Assembly (NCBI GenBank): GCA_003388555.1
Contig: QQVD01000001.1
Span: 92,501-156,500, forward strand
Direction: 5' to 3'
Source of the DNA: Acidobacteriota bacterium
GTDB lineage: Bacteria > Acidobacteriota > Thermoanaerobaculia > Multivoradales > Multivoraceae
Length of the DNA stretch: 64,000 nt
Shown here one piece after another: positions 56,271-64,000 of the stretch. The notes beneath the pieces were generated by a model that was not told the origin of the DNA, ran no database searches, and saw nothing but the letters and a program-made list of their open reading frames with translations. The position numbers were made by a program, and so were the translations under genes. Position 1 is the first letter of the stretch. Each line of letters begins with the position of its first letter.

Positions 56271-56286
56271 TAGCTGGTGGCTTGAG

Positions 56287-56292
56287 TAGACT
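56287..56292 (+). promoter_or_regulatory. Possible -10 box for the moaA/hopanoid region
   Basis: TAGACT just after the decamer array. The place of a -35 would fall in the last decamer unit. The leader to ATG 56387 would be about 88 nt. Confidence 0.25.
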
Positions 56293-56386
56293 TTCTCTTC
56301 TGCGTGCTGCCGACTGCACGCCGCCGTCGGCCAGTCGGCAGCTACGCTTCCAGGTGCACGACCCGACCAGCGACGACCCGGAAGGC

Positions 56387-57505
56387 ATGACCATCAGAGA
56401 ACGATCGCAGCACAGCGGGCCGGCTCCGGCCGGGACCGCCTCCGCAGGGCGTTCGGGCCTCGGCGCCGAGGAGCCGCTCGTCGACCGCCTCGGGCGTGGT
56501 CTCGACGACCTGCGCATCTCGGTGATCGATCGCTGCAACTACCGCTGCACCTTCTGCATGCCCGCCGATCGCGACTACCAGTTCCTGCCCCGGGAGGAGC
56601 TGCTGACGTTCGAGGAGATCGCGCGGCTGGCCGGGCTCTTCGTCGGTCTCGGGGTGCACAAGATCCGCCTCACCGGCGGTGAGCCGCTGCTGCGCAAGGA
56701 TCTGCCGGCCCTGGTGGAGATGCTGGCGTCGATCGACGGTGTCGAGGACCTGGCGCTCACCACCAACGGCGTCCTGCTGGAGAGGATGGCGGAGCCCCTG
56801 GCGGCGGCGGGTCTGCGCCGCGTCACCGTCAGCCTCGAGTCCCTGCGTGACGATCGCTACGGCGCGATCAACGGGGTGGGGCATCCGGTGGCGCCGATCC
56901 TGCGTGGCATCGAGGCCGCACAGCGCGCCGGGCTGGAACCGGTGAAGGTCAACGTCGTGGTGCAGCGTGGCGTCAACGACGACGAGGTCGTCGACCTGGC
57001 GCGCGAGCTCGGCCGTCGGCGCTGCGTGGTGCGCTTCATCGAGTTCATGGACGTCGGCACCCTCAACGACTGGGGCGAGGCGAAGGTGCTGTCGGCGCGC
57101 GAGATCGTGCAGCGGGTGGCGGCCGAGCTGCCGCTGACCCCGCGCGCCCGCCGCCGTGCCAGCGACACGGCGCTGCGTCACGAGTACCTCGGGGGGACCC
57201 CTGACGGGCCTCCGGCGGGGCTCGAGGTCGGCGCCATCGCCTCGATCACCGAGCCGTTCTGCGGCGACTGCACCCGCGCCCGGCTGACCAGCGAGGGCGC
57301 TCTGCACACCTGCCTCTTCTCGCACGCCGGCCTCGATCTCAAGGCCCCGCTGCGCGGCGGCGCGACGGACGCCCAGATCGAGCGGCTGATCGCCGACCGC
57401 TGGCGCCGCCGCGCCGACCGTTACTCGGAGGAGCGCGCCGAACGCATGGCCAGCGGAAGCCGGGTGGCGGAGCCGAAGATCGAGATGTATCGGATCGGCG
57501 GATGA
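56387..57505 (+). CDS. moaA: GTP 3',8-cyclase MoaA
   Basis: A 372-aa radical SAM enzyme that converts GTP to 3',8-cyclo-7,8-dihydro-GTP, the first step of molybdenum cofactor synthesis. The SAM cluster CNYRCTFC (Cys50, 54, 57) and the GGEPLL motif are present. The second [4Fe-4S] cluster that holds GTP is in FCGDCTRAR...C. The C terminus ends in GG, as required for MoaA activity. The N-terminal 30 residues are an unmatched Ser/Pro/Gly extension; ATG 56387 is used, and GTG 56354 or TTG 56282 are open. The next gene (shc) starts 37 bp downstream, so they may be cotranscribed. No other molybdopterin gene is visible. Confidence 0.93.
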   Translation: MTIRERSQHSGPAPAGTASAGRSGLGAEEPLVDRLGRGLDDLRISVIDRCNYRCTFCMPADRDYQFLPREELLTFEEIARLAGLFVGLGVHKIRLTGGEPLLRKDLPALVEMLASIDGVEDLALTTNGVLLERMAEPLAAAGLRRVTVSLESLRDDRYGAINGVGHPVAPILRGIEAAQRAGLEPVKVNVVVQRGVNDDEVVDLARELGRRRCVVRFIEFMDVGTLNDWGEAKVLSAREIVQRVAAELPLTPRARRRASDTALRHEYLGGTPDGPPAGLEVGAIASITEPFCGDCTRARLTSEGALHTCLFSHAGLDLKAPLRGGATDAQIERLIADRWRRRADRYSEERAERMASGSRVAEPKIEMYRIGG

Positions 57506-57542: not shown

Positions 57543-59777
57543 ATGAGTCTGGATCCGGCTCCCCAGCGAGCACGCTCCAGCCAGCCGTCCGCCGCGGGTC
57601 TGGCCTCCGCGGAGCCGGCCCGGGCTCGCCTGGAGCTGGTCGCCGAGACGCCTCTGCAGGCGGCGGTGACCAGCGCCAGCCGGCACCTGCTCGAGCTGCA
57701 GTTCGACGACGGCCACTGGTGCGCCGAGCTCGAGGGCGACACCATCCTCGAGTCCGAGTACCTGATGCTGCTGTGGTTCCTCGGCCGCCGCGACGACCCG
57801 CGCTTCGACCAGGGATGTCGCTACCTGCGCAGCCGTCAGCTCGACGAGGGCGGCTGGGCGATCTTCCCCGGCGGCCCCCCCGACCCGAGCCCCTCGGTGA
57901 AGGCGTACTTCATGCTCAAGCTGTGCGGCGATCCGCCGGACGCCGAGCACATGCAGCGCGCTCGCGAGTCGATTCGGCGCATGGGCGGCATCGCGGCCTG
58001 CAACTCGTTCACCAAGATCTACCTGGCGATGTTCGGGCAGTGGCCCTGGAGCCGGGCGCCGGCGGTGCCGCCGGAGCTCATCCTGCTGCCGCGCTGGTTC
58101 CCGATCAACATCTACGAGATGTCGTCCTGGTCGCGCGCGATCGTGGTGCCGCTGGCGATCCTCTGGGCTCACCGGCCGCGGGTCGAGGTGCCGGTCGATC
58201 TCGCCGAGCTCGACACCGGCGAGCCGGCGCCGCGGCCGGGTGACTCGTTGCGGCAGCGTTTCTGGTTCGCCTTCTTCCGCGGCGGCGATCGCTTCGTCAA
58301 GCTGGCCGAGCGGCTCGGTCTGTTCGCCGCCACTCGTGGCGTCGCACTGCGGCGCTGCGAGCGGTGGACCACCGAGCGGCTCGACGCGAGCGCCGGGCTG
58401 GGGGCGATCTTCCCGGCGATCGTCAACGCCGTGGTGGCGCTGCGCCTGCAGGGCTACCCGGAGGACCATCCGTTCGTCGCGCATCAGCTCGCCGAGCTCG
58501 AGAAGCTGGAGATCGTCGAGCCGCTCAGCGATCCACGCTCTCCGGTCGCCGCTACGACCCGAGGTCGCGGCCGCGCCGCGGCGCCGGCAGGCGGGGCATA
58601 CGTTGTCGCACCCGCGCCGACTCCCGCCGCAGGCGATCTCGCGCTCAGGGTGCAGCCCTGCCAGTCGCCGGTGTGGGATACGGCACTGTCGCTCAACGCT
58701 CTGCTCGAGTGCGGGGTCGACGCCAGCGACGCCCGGGTGCAGCAGGGCCTGCAGTGGCTGCTCGAGATGGAGGTGCGTCAGCCCGGTGACTGGCAGATCA
58801 AGAACGGAGACCGCGAGGTGGAGCCCTCCGGCTGGTTCTTCGAATACGCCAACGGCTTCTATCCGGACTGCGACGACACCGCCGAGGTCCTGGCGGTGTT
58901 GGGCAGGGCGCGCATGGAGGATCCGGCCTGGGAACAGCGTCGGCAGCAGGCGGTGCAGCGCGCCCTGCGCTGGCAGCTCAGCATGCAGAACCGCGACGGC
59001 GGTTGGGGAGCCTTCGATCGTGAGTGCAGTCGCGAGCTGCTCACCTACGTGCCGTTCGCCGACCACAACGCGATGATCGACCCCAGCACGGTCGACGTCA
59101 CCTCGCGCACGGTCGAGGCCCTGGTGCTACACCTCGGCCAGGGACACCCGTCGGTGCAGCGTGCGCTGGCCTTCATCGAGCGCAGCCAGGAGGCCGACGG
59201 CACGTGGTTCGGCCGCTGGGGCTCGAACTATCTGTATGGGACCTGGCTGGCGCTGTGCGCGCTCGCCGCGGCCGGACGCCGGGACGGCGAGGCCGCGCGC
59301 CGCGGAGTGCAGTGGCTGCTGGCGGTGCAGCGAGAGGACGGGGGCTGGGGCGAGAGCCTCGCCTCCTACGTCGATCCGTCGTGCAAGGGTGCCGGGCCGA
59401 GCACCGCGGCGCAGACCGCCTGGGCGCTGCTCGGGCTGATGGCGGTGCATCCCGACCTCGGCCCGGGTTGCGCGCCGGACGAAGAGCGTGACGCCGTGCG
59501 GCGCTCGGTCGAGGCCGGTGTCGCGCGTCTGGTCGCGAGCCAGGAGGCCGACGGCGGCTGGCGCGACGTCGAGTGGACCGGCACCGGCTTCCCCGCCGTC
59601 TTCTACCTGCGCTACCACTTCTACGACCGCTACTTCCCGCTCCAGGCGCTGGCCACGGCGCAGCGCTGCGGAGTGCGGGGCGCTGAGCGTCGCGGCACAG
59701 CGCCGGGCGGCGACGGCTGCGCGGAGCGCGACCCGGGAGAGCTCGCCGTCGTCGGCGCCAGCGAGGGATCGACATGA
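57543..59777 (+). CDS. shc: Squalene-hopene cyclase
   Basis: A 744-aa cyclase that folds squalene into hopene/hopanol at the membrane. The protonating motif PDCDD (Asp442, Asp444, Asp445) is intact. Several QW-type repeats are visible, such as QLDEGGWAIFPGG, QNRDGGWGAF, QEADGTWFGRWG, QREDGGWGES and QEADGGWRDVEWTG. It is longer than the usual 630-720 aa: a low-complexity Ala/Pro/Arg stretch at about 335-367 sits before the LRVQPCQSPVWDTALSLNALLE segment, and the C-terminal tail is also extended. It overlaps hpnH by four bases (ATGA). Confidence 0.97.
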   Translation: MSLDPAPQRARSSQPSAAGLASAEPARARLELVAETPLQAAVTSASRHLLELQFDDGHWCAELEGDTILESEYLMLLWFLGRRDDPRFDQGCRYLRSRQLDEGGWAIFPGGPPDPSPSVKAYFMLKLCGDPPDAEHMQRARESIRRMGGIAACNSFTKIYLAMFGQWPWSRAPAVPPELILLPRWFPINIYEMSSWSRAIVVPLAILWAHRPRVEVPVDLAELDTGEPAPRPGDSLRQRFWFAFFRGGDRFVKLAERLGLFAATRGVALRRCERWTTERLDASAGLGAIFPAIVNAVVALRLQGYPEDHPFVAHQLAELEKLEIVEPLSDPRSPVAATTRGRGRAAAPAGGAYVVAPAPTPAAGDLALRVQPCQSPVWDTALSLNALLECGVDASDARVQQGLQWLLEMEVRQPGDWQIKNGDREVEPSGWFFEYANGFYPDCDDTAEVLAVLGRARMEDPAWEQRRQQAVQRALRWQLSMQNRDGGWGAFDRECSRELLTYVPFADHNAMIDPSTVDVTSRTVEALVLHLGQGHPSVQRALAFIERSQEADGTWFGRWGSNYLYGTWLALCALAAAGRRDGEAARRGVQWLLAVQREDGGWGESLASYVDPSCKGAGPSTAAQTAWALLGLMAVHPDLGPGCAPDEERDAVRRSVEAGVARLVASQEADGGWRDVEWTGTGFPAVFYLRYHFYDRYFPLQALATAQRCGVRGAERRGTAPGGDGCAERDPGELAVVGASEGST

Positions 59778-60775
59778 GACTGCCTCTGCACATCGCCACC
59801 GATCAGCTCAAGAACCAGGTGCGGCAACGCCTCAAGGGCCGCAGGCGCTACCCCTACGTGTTGATGCTCGAGCCGCTCTACACATGCAACCTGGCCTGCA
59901 TCGGCTGCGCCGTCGAGCGCCACACCGGCAAGCTCAAGGACCGCCTGCCGCTCGAGCAGTGCCTGCTGGCGGTCGACGAGAGCGGCGCGCCGACGGTGTC
60001 GATCTGCGGCGGCGAGCCGACGATCTACCCGGAGCTGCCCGAGCTGGTCGCCGGCATCATCGCCCGCAAGCGCCACATCTACCTGTGCACCAACGCCCTG
60101 CTGCTCGACAGCAAGCTGTTCGGGCGCATACCTCCGGACAAGCGCCTGACGATCAACGTGCACCTCGACGGCATGCGCGAGACGCACGACTACGTCACCG
60201 CGCGCGAAGGTGTCTTCGACAAGGCGGTGGAGATGCTGCGCGAGTGCAAGCGCCGCGGCTACCACACCACGATCAACATGACGATCTTCAAGGAGACGGA
60301 GGTCGAGGAGATCGAGGAGGTCTGCCGCTTCGTGTCGGATCTCGGCATCGACGGCATCCTGATGTCGCCGGGCTACCACTACGAGTCGATCGAGCGCGAC
60401 ATCTTCCTCACCCGTCGCGACATCCAGCAGAAGTTCGAGCGGGTGCTCGAGATCAGTGACCGCTACCGCATCACCTCGACCCCGATGTTCCTCGAGTTCG
60501 CCGCCGGCAAGCGCGAGTACGACTGCTCGCCGTGGAGCACCGTGACCCGCACGCCGCTCGGCTGGAAGGGACCGTGCTACCTGATCGGCAAGCGCTTCTA
60601 CGACACCTTCGAGGAGTTCTGGAGCGAGACGGACTGGGACTACTGGGAGTCGCGCCAGGACGACCTCTGCCAGAACTGCGCCATGCACTCGGGTTTCGAG
60701 GCCTCGGTGGTGCGCAACCTGCACCGCAGCCCGAAGGACGTGCTGCGACTGGCGCGCTGGCACCTCACCGGGTGA
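59774..60775 (+). CDS. hpnH: Adenosyl-hopene transferase HpnH
   Basis: A 333-aa radical SAM enzyme that adds a 5'-deoxyadenosyl radical to diploptene, making adenosylhopane, the start of C35 hopanoids. It has the cluster CNLACIGC (Cys38, Cys42, Cys45) preceded by YPYVLMLEPLYT. The GGEPT motif and the C-terminal block with KGPCYLIGKRFYDTFEEFW and DLCQNCAMHSGFE match the HpnH family. It is membrane-peripheral and cytoplasmic. The ATG overlaps the shc stop, so translation is coupled. Confidence 0.96.
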   Translation: MRLPLHIATDQLKNQVRQRLKGRRRYPYVLMLEPLYTCNLACIGCAVERHTGKLKDRLPLEQCLLAVDESGAPTVSICGGEPTIYPELPELVAGIIARKRHIYLCTNALLLDSKLFGRIPPDKRLTINVHLDGMRETHDYVTAREGVFDKAVEMLRECKRRGYHTTINMTIFKETEVEEIEEVCRFVSDLGIDGILMSPGYHYESIERDIFLTRRDIQQKFERVLEISDRYRITSTPMFLEFAAGKREYDCSPWSTVTRTPLGWKGPCYLIGKRFYDTFEEFWSETDWDYWESRQDDLCQNCAMHSGFEASVVRNLHRSPKDVLRLARWHLTG

Positions 60776-60830: not shown

Positions 60831-61829
60831 GTGCCTTTGAAGGCTCTGGTCACCGGCGGCACAGGTTTCGTCGGCGCGCACGTCGTGCGGGCGCTGCTCG
60901 CGGATGGCGCCAGCGTGCGCTGCCTGGTGCGTGGTCACAGCGACCTGGCCAACCTCGACGGGCTCGAGGTCGATCTCGTGGTCGGCGATCTGCGCGACCG
61001 CGAGAGCCTCGAGGTGGCGCTGGCCGGCAGCGAGGCTCTCTTCCACTGCGCCGCCGACTACCGGCTGGGCGTGCGCGACCCGGCCGAGCTCTACCGCAGC
61101 AACGTCGAGGGCACTCGGAATCTGCTCGAGGCGGCGCGCGCCTGCGGAGTGCGCCGCGTGGTGCACACCAGCTCGGTCGGTGCCCTCGGGCTGCTGGCCG
61201 GCGGCGAGCCGGCCGACGAGGAGACGCCGGTGCGCGCGGCGGACCTGGTCGGTCCCTACAAACGCTCCAAGCATCTCTCCGAGGAGGTCGCGCTCGAGAT
61301 GGCGCGCAGCGGTCTCGACGTGGTGGTGGTGAACCCCTCCACCCCGGTCGGCGAGCTCGATCGCAAGCCGACGCCGACCGGTCAGATGATCGTCGACTTC
61401 CTGTGCGGTCGGATGCCGGCCTACGTGCACACGGGGCTGAACCTGATCGATGTGCGCGACGTCGCGGCCGGACATCTGCTCGCCTACCGCGACGGTCGCC
61501 GCGGCGAGCGCTACATCCTCGGTCACCAGAACCTCACCCTGCGCGAGATCCTCGCCCTGCTCGCCGAGATCACCGGTCGGCCGGCGCCGCGCCTGCGGCT
61601 GCCCCACGCCGCGCCCCTCGTCGCGGCGGCGGCCTCGGAGCTGTGGGCGCGTCTGTCCGGCGGCGAGCCGCGGCTGCCGCTGGAGAGCGTGCGCATGTCG
61701 CGCAAGCTGATGTGGTTCGACGCCTCCAAGGCGGTGCGCGAGCTCGGTCTGCCGCAGAGTCCGATCCGGCCGGCGCTCGAGCGGGCGGTCGAGTTCTTCC
61801 GCGCCACCGGACAGGCGCCGGTGCGGTGA
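60831..61829 (+). CDS. hpnA: Hopanoid-associated sugar epimerase HpnA
   Basis: A 332-aa extended SDR/NAD-dependent epimerase. The NAD motif is GGTGFVGAHVVRALL and the catalytic YxxxK is in GPYKRSKHLSEE. It follows HTSSVGALG and VNPSTPVGELDRKPTPTGQ, which are typical of the hopanoid-associated group. The exact reaction is unproven in the family; a role in modifying the ribosyl side chain is usual speculation. The start is GTG at 60831 (GGGAA 6 nt before), or TTG 60837. Its stop overlaps the hpnG start by one base (TGATG). Confidence 0.9.
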   Translation: MPLKALVTGGTGFVGAHVVRALLADGASVRCLVRGHSDLANLDGLEVDLVVGDLRDRESLEVALAGSEALFHCAADYRLGVRDPAELYRSNVEGTRNLLEAARACGVRRVVHTSSVGALGLLAGGEPADEETPVRAADLVGPYKRSKHLSEEVALEMARSGLDVVVVNPSTPVGELDRKPTPTGQMIVDFLCGRMPAYVHTGLNLIDVRDVAAGHLLAYRDGRRGERYILGHQNLTLREILALLAEITGRPAPRLRLPHAAPLVAAAASELWARLSGGEPRLPLESVRMSRKLMWFDASKAVRELGLPQSPIRPALERAVEFFRATGQAPVR

Positions 61830-62794
61830 TGGTCCCGGAACCCGAAGCGACGGCACCGACGCCCGCGTCCGCGAGGCACCCGGTGCTGGTCTGCGCGGCC
61901 TTGCGCGGCGAGCTGACGCCGTGGCTGCGGGCTCTCCGGGACCGACGCTCGCTGCATTGCGGCCCGGCCCTGCTCGGCCTCGTCGAGGGCCGACTCGCCA
62001 CCAGGCTGCTGCACGTCGCCTGGTTCGGGGTCGGCGCCTCGCGCGCGGCGGCGGCGGCGGAGGAGCTGGCCGGTCGACTCTGCGGACGCACCACCGAGCG
62101 GGCGCAGCGGGTCCCGGCCGACGCTGCCGGCGCGCCGACGGTGTACCTGGTCGGCCTGGCGGGGGGCCTGGATCCGGCTCTGCGCGTCGGCGAGACGGTC
62201 TGGATCGACGGCATCGACCGCATCGACGACCTCGACGCGATGGACCGCAGCGGTCCCCGCGGTCTCCGCAGTCATGGCGACCGGATCGATGGGGTCGAGC
62301 TGCTCGAGGAGTCCGGGAGGAACGATGAGCCGGGGCGCGGCGTCGCGGTCGGCCTCGCGGCGACCGGAGCCCCGGCGCCGTCGATGCTGCGCGCTGCAGC
62401 GCCGCTGCGCGGTCGCGCCGATGGACGGCTCGCCACCCTCACCGGTCCCCGGCCCCTGGCCAGCGCGGCGGAGAAGGCGAGGCTGTGGGATGCTCTGGAG
62501 CGCCCGTTGCGAGCCCTGGTCGACATGGAGAGCCACCCCTTCGTCGATCGGCTGACAGCGGCCGGAGAACGGGTCGCGGTGCTGCGCGCGGTGAGCGACG
62601 TCGCCGACGAATCGCTGCCGGCGGTGCTGGCGGCGGGGTTCGGCCCCGGTGGTCTCGACGCCGGGCGGATCGCACGGTCGGCGGTGCTCCGCCCTCACAG
62701 CTGGTCGAGCCTGGCGCGCCTCTCCTCCCGACTGCGGCGGGGCGCTGCCGCGCTCGCTGCCGCGCTGCACGCCGAGCTCGGAGTCGACCCGTGA
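61829..62794 (+). CDS. hpnG: Adenosylhopane nucleosidase/phosphorylase HpnG
   Basis: A 321-aa member of the purine-nucleoside-phosphorylase-like fold. HpnG removes adenine from adenosylhopane to give ribosyl- or phosphoribosyl-hopane, which then leads to bacteriohopanetetrol. Evidence: LVCAALRGELTPWLRALR at the N terminus, LVGLAGGLDPALRVGETVW, and VDMESHPFVDRLTAAGERVAVLRAVSD, which holds the conserved Glu. It is longer than many relatives; an acidic/basic stretch at about 131-165 (DRIDDLDAMDRSGPRG-like) looks like an insert. It overlaps hpnA by 1 base and the next gene by four. Confidence 0.88.
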   Translation: MVPEPEATAPTPASARHPVLVCAALRGELTPWLRALRDRRSLHCGPALLGLVEGRLATRLLHVAWFGVGASRAAAAAEELAGRLCGRTTERAQRVPADAAGAPTVYLVGLAGGLDPALRVGETVWIDGIDRIDDLDAMDRSGPRGLRSHGDRIDGVELLEESGRNDEPGRGVAVGLAATGAPAPSMLRAAAPLRGRADGRLATLTGPRPLASAAEKARLWDALERPLRALVDMESHPFVDRLTAAGERVAVLRAVSDVADESLPAVLAAGFGPGGLDAGRIARSAVLRPHSWSSLARLSSRLRRGAAALAAALHAELGVDP

Positions 62795-64000
62795 ACGGTG
62801 GCTGCTGCGGAGCTGGCGAGGCGATGGAGCGGTGCAAGGGGTGGGCAAGAGCGATGCTGTCGCTGGTGGTCCTCGCCTGCGGTTCCTCCTCACCGGGCCG
62901 CCTCGCCGAGGCTCCCGTCGCACCGGCGGGCGCGGGTGCCGGACGCGAGCCGCCGGTCCTGGTCGTCATGCTCGACGCGGTGCCGTGGGAGGTGATGTCG
63001 GAGGCGCGCCGGCGCGGCCTGTTCGCAGAGCTGCACCCCCCGGTCCCTGTGGTCAGCTCGTTCCCGTCGACCACCACGGTGTCGCTCGCCGGTACCTTCG
63101 TGCCGCTCGGCATGCGTAGGCCGCCCGGCTACGAGGCGCGCTTCTTCGACTGGCAGCAGGCGAGGGTGCGCGGCGGCGGCCCGATCAGCTACAACCGCAT
63201 CGACACCTACTGGGCCGACTTCTTCGACTGGCACGTCGAGAACCCGATCCGCAAGGGCTTCGGCTTCCTGCGCCCGCTGCGCTTCGCCCGTTGGGAGATG
63301 CAGCGTGGACTCGAGCGTTTCCTCGCCAGCGGCGAGCCGGTCTTCCTGACCTACGTCTCGGCGACCGACGGCGCAGCCCACCTGCACGGTCCGGACGAGC
63401 TGCTCGAGCTGCTGGCGGCGCTCGACGAGCTGCTGGCCGCAGCGCGCCAGCGCCGCGACTTCGTCACCGTGCTGTTCTCGGACCACGGCATCGAGGGCAG
63501 CCCGGCGGCCAGCGCGACGGACGCGTCGACGCGGAACGAGTCGAGGCCGCCACCGCTGCAAAACGTGCGCACGGCGATCGCCGCGGCGCTGGGCCAAGCC
63601 GGGTACCGTCTCGGCGACCGGCTACGACAGCCTGGCGACGTCGTCTGGGTGCGCTACGGGCTACTCACCAGTGCAGTGCTGTTCACCGCCCCGGGCGACG
63701 AGTCGCAGGTGGCCCGTACGGTCGCCGCGGTGCCCGGCGTCGACCTGTGCGCCGCCCGTGACCGTGCCGCCGAACGCTGGCCGGTCTTCGCCGATGGCTC
63801 CGAGGCGGTGGTCGAGCGGCGCGACGTCGACGGCTCGGCGGTGGAGCTGCGGCTGCGAGGTGACTCCTCGGTGCTCGGTGAGGAGCTCCCCGCGGAACGG
63901 TGGCTGAGCCCTGCGGAGTGGCTGCGCGCCAGCTGGTCGGCGGCGCTGCCCGACGCGCCGTACCGCATCGTGCGCGCCTTCGACCTGGTCGACAACGCCG
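62791..64000 (+). CDS. Alkaline phosphatase/phosphodiesterase superfamily lipoprotein, truncated at the window end
   Basis: A frame open from GTG 62791 (overlapping the hpnG stop as GTGA) to the window end, about 403 codons without a stop; ATG 62824 is also possible. A lipoprotein signal LSLVVLACGSSS (Cys30) suggests export and lipid anchoring. Metal-site features of the nucleotide pyrophosphatase/phosphodiesterase group are seen: Asp in VLVVMLDAVPW, Thr nucleophile in SSFPSTTTVSLAG, Asp/His in YVSATDGAAHLHG, and SDHG in LFSDHGIEG. It should hydrolyse or transfer a phospho-ester outside the cytoplasm. Coupling to hpnG suggests a hopanoid role, which is an inference. Confidence 0.82.
   Translation, partial: MNGGCCGAGEAMERCKGWARAMLSLVVLACGSSSPGRLAEAPVAPAGAGAGREPPVLVVMLDAVPWEVMSEARRRGLFAELHPPVPVVSSFPSTTTVSLAGTFVPLGMRRPPGYEARFFDWQQARVRGGGPISYNRIDTYWADFFDWHVENPIRKGFGFLRPLRFARWEMQRGLERFLASGEPVFLTYVSATDGAAHLHGPDELLELLAALDELLAAARQRRDFVTVLFSDHGIEGSPAASATDASTRNESRPPPLQNVRTAIAAALGQAGYRLGDRLRQPGDVVWVRYGLLTSAVLFTAPGDESQVARTVAAVPGVDLCAARDRAAERWPVFADGSEAVVERRDVDGSAVELRLRGDSSVLGEELPAERWLSPAEWLRASWSAALPDAPYRIVRAFDLVDNA

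Follow-up and report, generated by a model that had tools for sequence, protein, structure and literature searches.

A gene for an NPP-like protein between hopanoid and mevalonate-pathway genes in an acidobacterial operon

When a gene for an uncharacterised protein is translationally coupled to a gene for hopanoid side-chain synthesis, is its product a further hopanoid enzyme? The question is raised by a stretch of 64,000 nucleotides from an Acidobacteriota bacterium of the class Thermoanaerobaculia (GenBank assembly GCA_003388555.1, contig QQVD01000001.1, positions 92,501–156,500), referred to below as the window, in which hpnG is followed by a gene for an alkaline-phosphatase-like protein. 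A first-pass annotation had proposed this protein as a candidate hopanoid side-chain enzyme. The gene, which extends from window position 62791 onward, will be called the NPP-like gene, after the enzymes that its product resembles. Our analysis points, tentatively and with somewhat less than an even chance of being right, to a different answer, namely an exported NPP-type phosphohydrolase of isoprenoid-lipid metabolism.

The overlap of the two genes is confirmed. The GTG start codon (62791–62793) and the hpnG stop codon (62792–62794) overlap in the four bases GTGA, and a GGAG is positioned a few bases upstream of the GTG. The span originally given, 61829–64000, also covers hpnG itself and falls short of the end of the gene. 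The remainder was read from the surrounding contig (L002, in which the position plus 55000 equals the window position): on the plus strand, the gene occupies 62791–64000 and continues outside the window to 64308, where its stop codon and the GTG of fni, the gene for type 2 isopentenyl diphosphate (IPP) isomerase, again overlap by four bases. The product is 505 aa long if translated from the GTG at 62791 and 494 aa if translated from an ATG at 62824. Its description as an NPP-fold phosphodiesterase/phosphatase-like protein with a signal peptide is based on the open reading frame, the two overlaps, a borderline PF01663 match and the fold of a homolog model. The NPP-like gene lies midway in a tightly packed operon, shc–hpnH–hpnA–hpnG–[NPP-like gene]–fni–HMG-CoA reductase–mevalonate kinase–decarboxylase–squalene synthase, which leads from hopanoid side-chain genes into genes for IPP isomerase, the mevalonate pathway and squalene synthase. 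The first-pass annotation had proposed an operon of the first five genes; it is longer than that and continues into mevalonate-pathway genes.

Catalytic residues, fold and export signal

The window protein was compared with its homologs in two alignments. The first (A1) comprises 20 proteins, 18 from the clade of class genomes described below and two remote ones, with the other 19 being 25–42% identical to the window protein; the partial sequences L043, L046 and L047 were left out. The second (A3) comprises 26 proteins, including additional remote ones, and leaves out L084, which contains a stop-codon error, as well as L076, L079, L081, L082 and L088. The six ligands of the two-metal site are invariant in both alignments (20/20 and 26/26), and the nucleophile position is occupied by Thr in 19/20 and 23/26 proteins, respectively, and by Ser in the rest, the sole Ser in A1 being that of L026. 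The ligand pattern (Asp, Thr/Ser, Asp-x3-His, Asp-His, His), the binding of metals and the role of the Thr as nucleophile are presumed by analogy with NPPs. The motifs MLDAV, FPSTTT, ATDGAAHLHG and SDHG, already pointed out in the first-pass annotation, all lie in frame, and the invariance of the ligands marks them as no mere coincidence. With residues numbered from the ATG at 62824, the metal-binding Asp of MLDAV is D51 (62974–62976), the Thr of FPSxT is T84 (63073–63075), the TDxxxH site provides D182 and H186 (63364–63381) and the SDHG site D220 and H221 (63478–63489), all on the plus strand. The last ligand, in a THGxL motif on the same strand, was found beyond the window at 64096–64098.

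Sequence profiles place the protein at the edge of a known family. The match to PF01663 (type I phosphodiesterase) scores 22.3 bits for the part inside the window and 23.2 bits for the whole protein, the gathering cut-off being 23, and 19 of the 20 members match this family at E ≤ 0.01. No convincing NCBIfam match was obtained among the 20 members (best E 4e-4). A profile search of PDB sequences retrieved ENPP6 (2e-5) and ENPP7 (2e-4), improving to 8e-6 and 5e-6 when more remote rows were included, with matches spanning ∼70–90 residues around the TDxxxH and SDHG sites. An AlphaFold2 model of the homolog L103 (pLDDT 88.4, pTM 0.88) was most similar to Xac NPP and ENPP6 in Foldseek searches (E 6e-12 to 4e-11). 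VIA-align superposed the model onto ENPP6, ENPP7 and Xac NPP with Z-scores of 19.7–21.4 (ENPP6: Z 21.4, rmsd 4.2, 328 aligned residues) and onto phosphonoacetate hydrolase with a Z-score of 20.9 (rmsd 3.5, 313 aligned). The assignment to the phosphatase superfamily is thus upheld by the catalytic residues and the NPP fold of the homolog model. The protein is an uncharacterised new member of a known enzyme superfamily, the alkaline phosphatase superfamily, and very probably a hydrolase with two metals that belongs to its NPP/phosphodiesterase branch.

Hydropathy and a regular expression revealed a signal-peptide hydrophobic stretch (AMLSLVVLACGS) with a lipobox-like VLAC at 62851–62886 (plus strand). 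With start codons chosen by us, a hydrophobic N-terminal segment is present in 20/20 aligned proteins; among nine cytosolic neighbours, mvk alone (1.82) passed the same threshold. A lipobox following the hydrophobic stretch was detected by the strict expression in the window copy alone of the 20; in L028 (LAAC) and L032 (VGGC) its matches lie at other N-terminal positions, and a TLAC in L039 was seen by eye but missed by the expression. Export via a Sec-type signal is highly probable, and the earlier remark that the product would be located outside the cytoplasm was apt. The designation as a lipoprotein may hold for the window copy, lipidation being likely at most there and in a few other copies; the lipobox is a trait of the window copy rather than of the family.

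The gene with and without hopanoid genes

In a survey of 148 genomes of the class, in which at most 10 or 11 candidates were scored per genome (four in one search), so that distant copies could be missed, 21 genomes matched the NPP-like gene. One of them, G063, contains only a remote paralog (32% identity), leaving 20 that were counted; its hpn contig ends inside hpnA, which makes the slot after hpnG unreadable. An epimerase gene 2.3 kb from this paralog, 31% identical to hpnA, was not counted as hpnA because Pfam identifies its product just as a NAD-dependent epimerase-family protein. A scan of named records with the family pattern yielded 21 loci, of which five are from Thermoanaerobaculia, 12 from Acidobacteria/Acidobacteriota, three from uncultured bacteria and one from Phycisphaerae. 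A phage origin of the gene was also considered and dropped, as no relative was confirmed in a scan of viral contigs.

Genes of the hpn set adjoin the NPP-like gene in 17 of the 20 clade genomes, so that the operon context of the window is conserved in relatives. In 16 of these the genes share a contig (that of G051 retains just the end of hpnG); the seventeenth, G036, is split, one contig ending in hpnG and the start of such a gene and another ending inside the gene. Linkage to isoprenoid genes, fni or others, was found in 16 of the 18 assessable genomes, the contigs of G043 and G045 ending at the NPP-like gene. In family f4, where the contigs reach, the usual order is shc–hpnH–hpnA–hpnG–[NPP-like gene]–polyprenyl synthase–fni–HMG-CoA reductase–kinase–decarboxylase–isopentenyl phosphate kinase–squalene synthase–UbiD, whereas the NPP-like gene of G041 and G042 is directly followed by fni and squalene synthase. 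None of the 20 genomes lacks a copy beside hpn or isoprenoid genes.

Some of this would fit an enzyme that dephosphorylates exported hopanoids, or adds a head group to them, after HpnG. Besides the overlap with hpnG, the 17 linked genomes include both members of family f2 (G021 and G022), which keep the gene with the hpn genes and have their mevalonate cluster elsewhere, and all 16 hpnH-containing genomes of families f2 and f4 carry the gene. Across the class, however, most genomes with hpnH lack it. We found hpnH in 46 of the 148 genomes, or 47 with G053, in which it is cut by a contig end; 17 of the 47 possess the NPP-like gene and 30 do not (counting G063, with its unreadable slot). In the window's own family 20 of the 21 hpnH genomes are without it, and in one member, G062, the slot between hpnG and fni contains a gene for a TonB_C-domain protein (L090, 6526–7611). 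Furthermore, HpnG is reported to generate ribosylhopane, not a phosphate compound, with the enzyme that makes bacteriohopanetetrol not established, and the main text of that article contains neither 'phosphatase' nor 'phosphoribo' (PMC12583986). No paper that connects a phosphatase or NPP with hopanoid genes came up in literature searches on hopanoid-linked phosphatases, NPP and phosphoribohopane, and a search combining Thermoanaerobaculia with hopanoids returned nothing on the subject.

The converse is seen in G037, G040 and G048 (86–89% complete), in which the NPP-like gene is present with intact catalytic residues and no match to HpnH or squalene-hopene cyclase was obtained. Here the gene heads the isoprenoid operon and the shc–hpnH–hpnA–hpnG block is missing: a divergent gene whose neighbour in nine f4 genomes is shc directly adjoins the NPP-like gene, which is then followed by the isoprenoid genes. 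Missing sequence in incomplete metagenome-assembled genomes remains a caveat for the three, but the intact junction argues against so simple a cause. In a tree built without L043, L046 and L047 (partial), L082 and L118, the three hpn-less genomes fall in separate places. G037 nests with the hpn-bearing G038 (SH-aLRT 97), and G048 and G040 lie on branches with support of 82 and 74, not all intervening branches being strongly supported; the hpn label requires five changes on the whole tree, two of them forced by strongly supported branches. Of the three, G037 alone has a close sister that bears hpn genes (G038), which allows a direct comparison. Identity to the copy of the outgroup G039 is 65% for G037 and 67% for G038, identity to that of G046 is 52% and 49%, respectively, and rough dN/dS values, calculated at dS of 1.0 to 1.9, are 0.18 for G037/G038, 0.16 and 0.17 for each of them against G039 and 0.20 for the hpn-less pair G037/G048. 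Being kept without the hpn block and, in G037, as constrained as in the hpn-bearing sister, the gene probably retains a function in the absence of hopanoids. Since it remains linked to the mevalonate genes in genomes that lack the hopanoid ones, its product is probably not a dedicated hopanoid enzyme; the continuation of the operon into the mevalonate pathway counts against such a role as well. The hopanoid role put forward in the first-pass annotation is thereby weakened, and we now regard it as unlikely.

The reading that we tentatively prefer can be spelled out as follows. After Sec-type export the protein would reside outside the cytoplasmic membrane, where the Thr nucleophile would attack the phosphorus of a phosphate held by the two metals. 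Its probable export and NPP fold suggest that phosphoesters are cleaved outside the membrane, and the linkage to isoprenoid genes suggests a lipid of isoprenoid origin. The substrate would accordingly be a phosphate-bearing compound made by, or handled with, the isoprenoid lipids of the cell; that it is itself an isoprenoid lipid is plausible at somewhat under even chances. Hopanoids might serve as a substrate where present, and they are probably not the only one, given that genomes lacking hopanoid genes keep the NPP-like gene. A more far-reaching version is rather doubtful: a periplasmic phosphoesterase or head-group transferase of a new class, which would accept isoprenoid lipids, hopanoids as well as others, at the membrane's outer face and be co-expressed with the route from HMG-CoA to C35 hopanoids.

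Several observations weigh against the preferred reading. The Foldseek TM-scores are modest (0.45–0.53 by query length), and the model is that of the homolog L103 and not of the window protein, whose branch in the tree is long (1.28). The separate mevalonate cluster of family f2 and the second HMG-CoA reductase of the window's genome (see below) count in the same direction, and shared regulation alone can explain membership of the operon. Most genomes with the relevant pathways manage without the gene: besides the 30 of 47 with hpnH, 71 of the 89 with HMG-CoA reductase have none, implying that no isoprenoid process needs it in general. Finally, some copies lie in quite different surroundings. 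A second copy in G021 (L026, 4725–6131), which has Ser at the nucleophile position, is located away from the hpn and mevalonate genes, next to obgE- and nadD-like genes (identified by eye). No hpn or mevalonate neighbours were found at any of 18 loci of remote homologs, each covering 4.6 to 19.5 kb. The first-pass annotation would have given up its proposal if most relatives had no hpn neighbours; this is not so within the clade, but it is so among the remote homologs. The neighbours of the latter offered no hint of function apart from locally conserved gene order: by eye, mur/fts-like genes were recognised at three loci and a TPR-like gene at six. A conserved upstream gene, TPR-like by eye, is shared by the remote homologs L083–L087 and L117 of other acidobacterial genomes.

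Such scattered copies would fit a general exported phosphodiesterase, a mere passenger of the operon that scavenges phosphate outside the cell from nucleotides or glycerophosphodiesters, and the closest solved relatives do include NPPs acting on nucleotides and phosphocholine esters. Against this, a copy sits beside hpn or isoprenoid genes in 20/20 clade genomes while the clade proteins are just 33–42% identical to that of the window, which is more linkage than a passenger would be expected to show. Scavenging is a serious rival all the same, though an unlikely one.

The surrounding genes and isoprenoid supply

The genes annotated here within the window all lie on the plus strand. The squalene-hopene cyclase gene shc (57543–59777; TIGR01507, 607 bits), the adenosylhopane synthase gene hpnH (59774–60775; TIGR03470, 379 bits) and hpnA, encoding the hopanoid-associated sugar epimerase (60831–61829; TIGR03466, 464.7 bits), all score over the respective cut-offs. 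The hopanoid-associated phosphorylase encoded by hpnG (61829–62794) is diverged: it passes the cut-off of PF01048 (PNP_UDP_1) and reaches 60 bits with TIGR03468, for which the cut-off is 187, and is thus a diverged member, still a phosphorylase-superfamily protein. The divergence is strong, and its 321 aa exceed the 212 positions of the TIGR03468 model, to which the match is partial. Upstream, a moaA-like radical SAM gene (56282–57505; PF04055 and PF06463) ends 37 bases before shc and is possibly part of the same operon; it is also found upstream of shc in G062 and G063. Downstream, outside the window (L002 9305–15138; window position 64305 onward), the type 2 IPP isomerase scores over its cut-off, HMG-CoA reductase passes the Pfam cut-off and falls slightly below that of TIGR00533, a GHMP kinase resembling mevalonate kinase scores 124 bits (cut-off 163), the decarboxylase is above the diphosphomevalonate decarboxylase cut-off, and the last gene encodes a squalene/phytoene synthase (PF00494, 121.8 bits).

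No match to DXR was obtained in the window's genome, nor in five of the seven other genomes searched, the exceptions being G046 and G050; isoprenoids in the window's genome are therefore predicted to come, probably, from the mevalonate route. The operon may not be their sole source, as a second HMG-CoA reductase gene is located on another contig (G000:C20:15032–16198). An isopentenyl phosphate kinase homolog (44%) is encoded elsewhere in the genome (G000:C12:9806–10600), and the operon kinase of a relative exceeds the NF040647 cut-off; these similarities hint at a modified mevalonate pathway. A probably exported phosphohydrolase encoded in a mevalonate operon, in a genome without a DXR match, might also replace undecaprenyl-diphosphate phosphatase in the recycling of the carrier lipid. 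BacA/UppP, however, was found in all 22 genomes searched (16 with the NPP-like gene and six without), and PAP2 matches in 13 of the 22, 12 of them over the cut-off. With BacA/UppP present throughout, such a replacement is very improbable.

Comparison with known systems

The enzyme, uncharacterised and probably exported, is encoded at a conserved position of an operon in which genes for isoprenoid precursors meet those for hopanoid synthesis; most of the bacteria concerned are represented here by metagenome-assembled genomes. For hopanoid research, one tempting candidate for an unassigned side-chain step is weakened. Genomes without adjoining hopanoid genes make it possible to tell a hopanoid role from a general one in isoprenoid metabolism, and direct bench work to the question of the substrate.

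In other acidobacteria, a gene without assigned function, ug1, has been described directly after hpnA–hpnG (Sinninghe Damsté et al. 2017, PMC5462960). The NPP-like gene resembles it in this position in Acidobacteria, a likeness of place. According to that article, the cultivated genomes encode the non-mevalonate pathway, unlike the operon of the window, and mevalonate genes are present in the SD22 genome Mor1.

The phosphonoacetate hydrolase PhnA is alike in fold, as seen from the Z-score given above, and weakly so in sequence, the TIGR02335 match of 12.9 bits being far under the family cut-off of 407.55 bits. With ENPP6, ENPP7 and the Xanthomonas NPP (PF01663) the NPP-like protein has in common the fold, the Thr nucleophile, the pattern of metal ligands and probable export. 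It differs from them in sequence, with 12–13% identity by structure and a Pfam score at the cut-off, and has features of its own in the conserved GYExRFFDW-like stretch that follows the nucleophile and in the hpn/isoprenoid neighbourhood of its gene.

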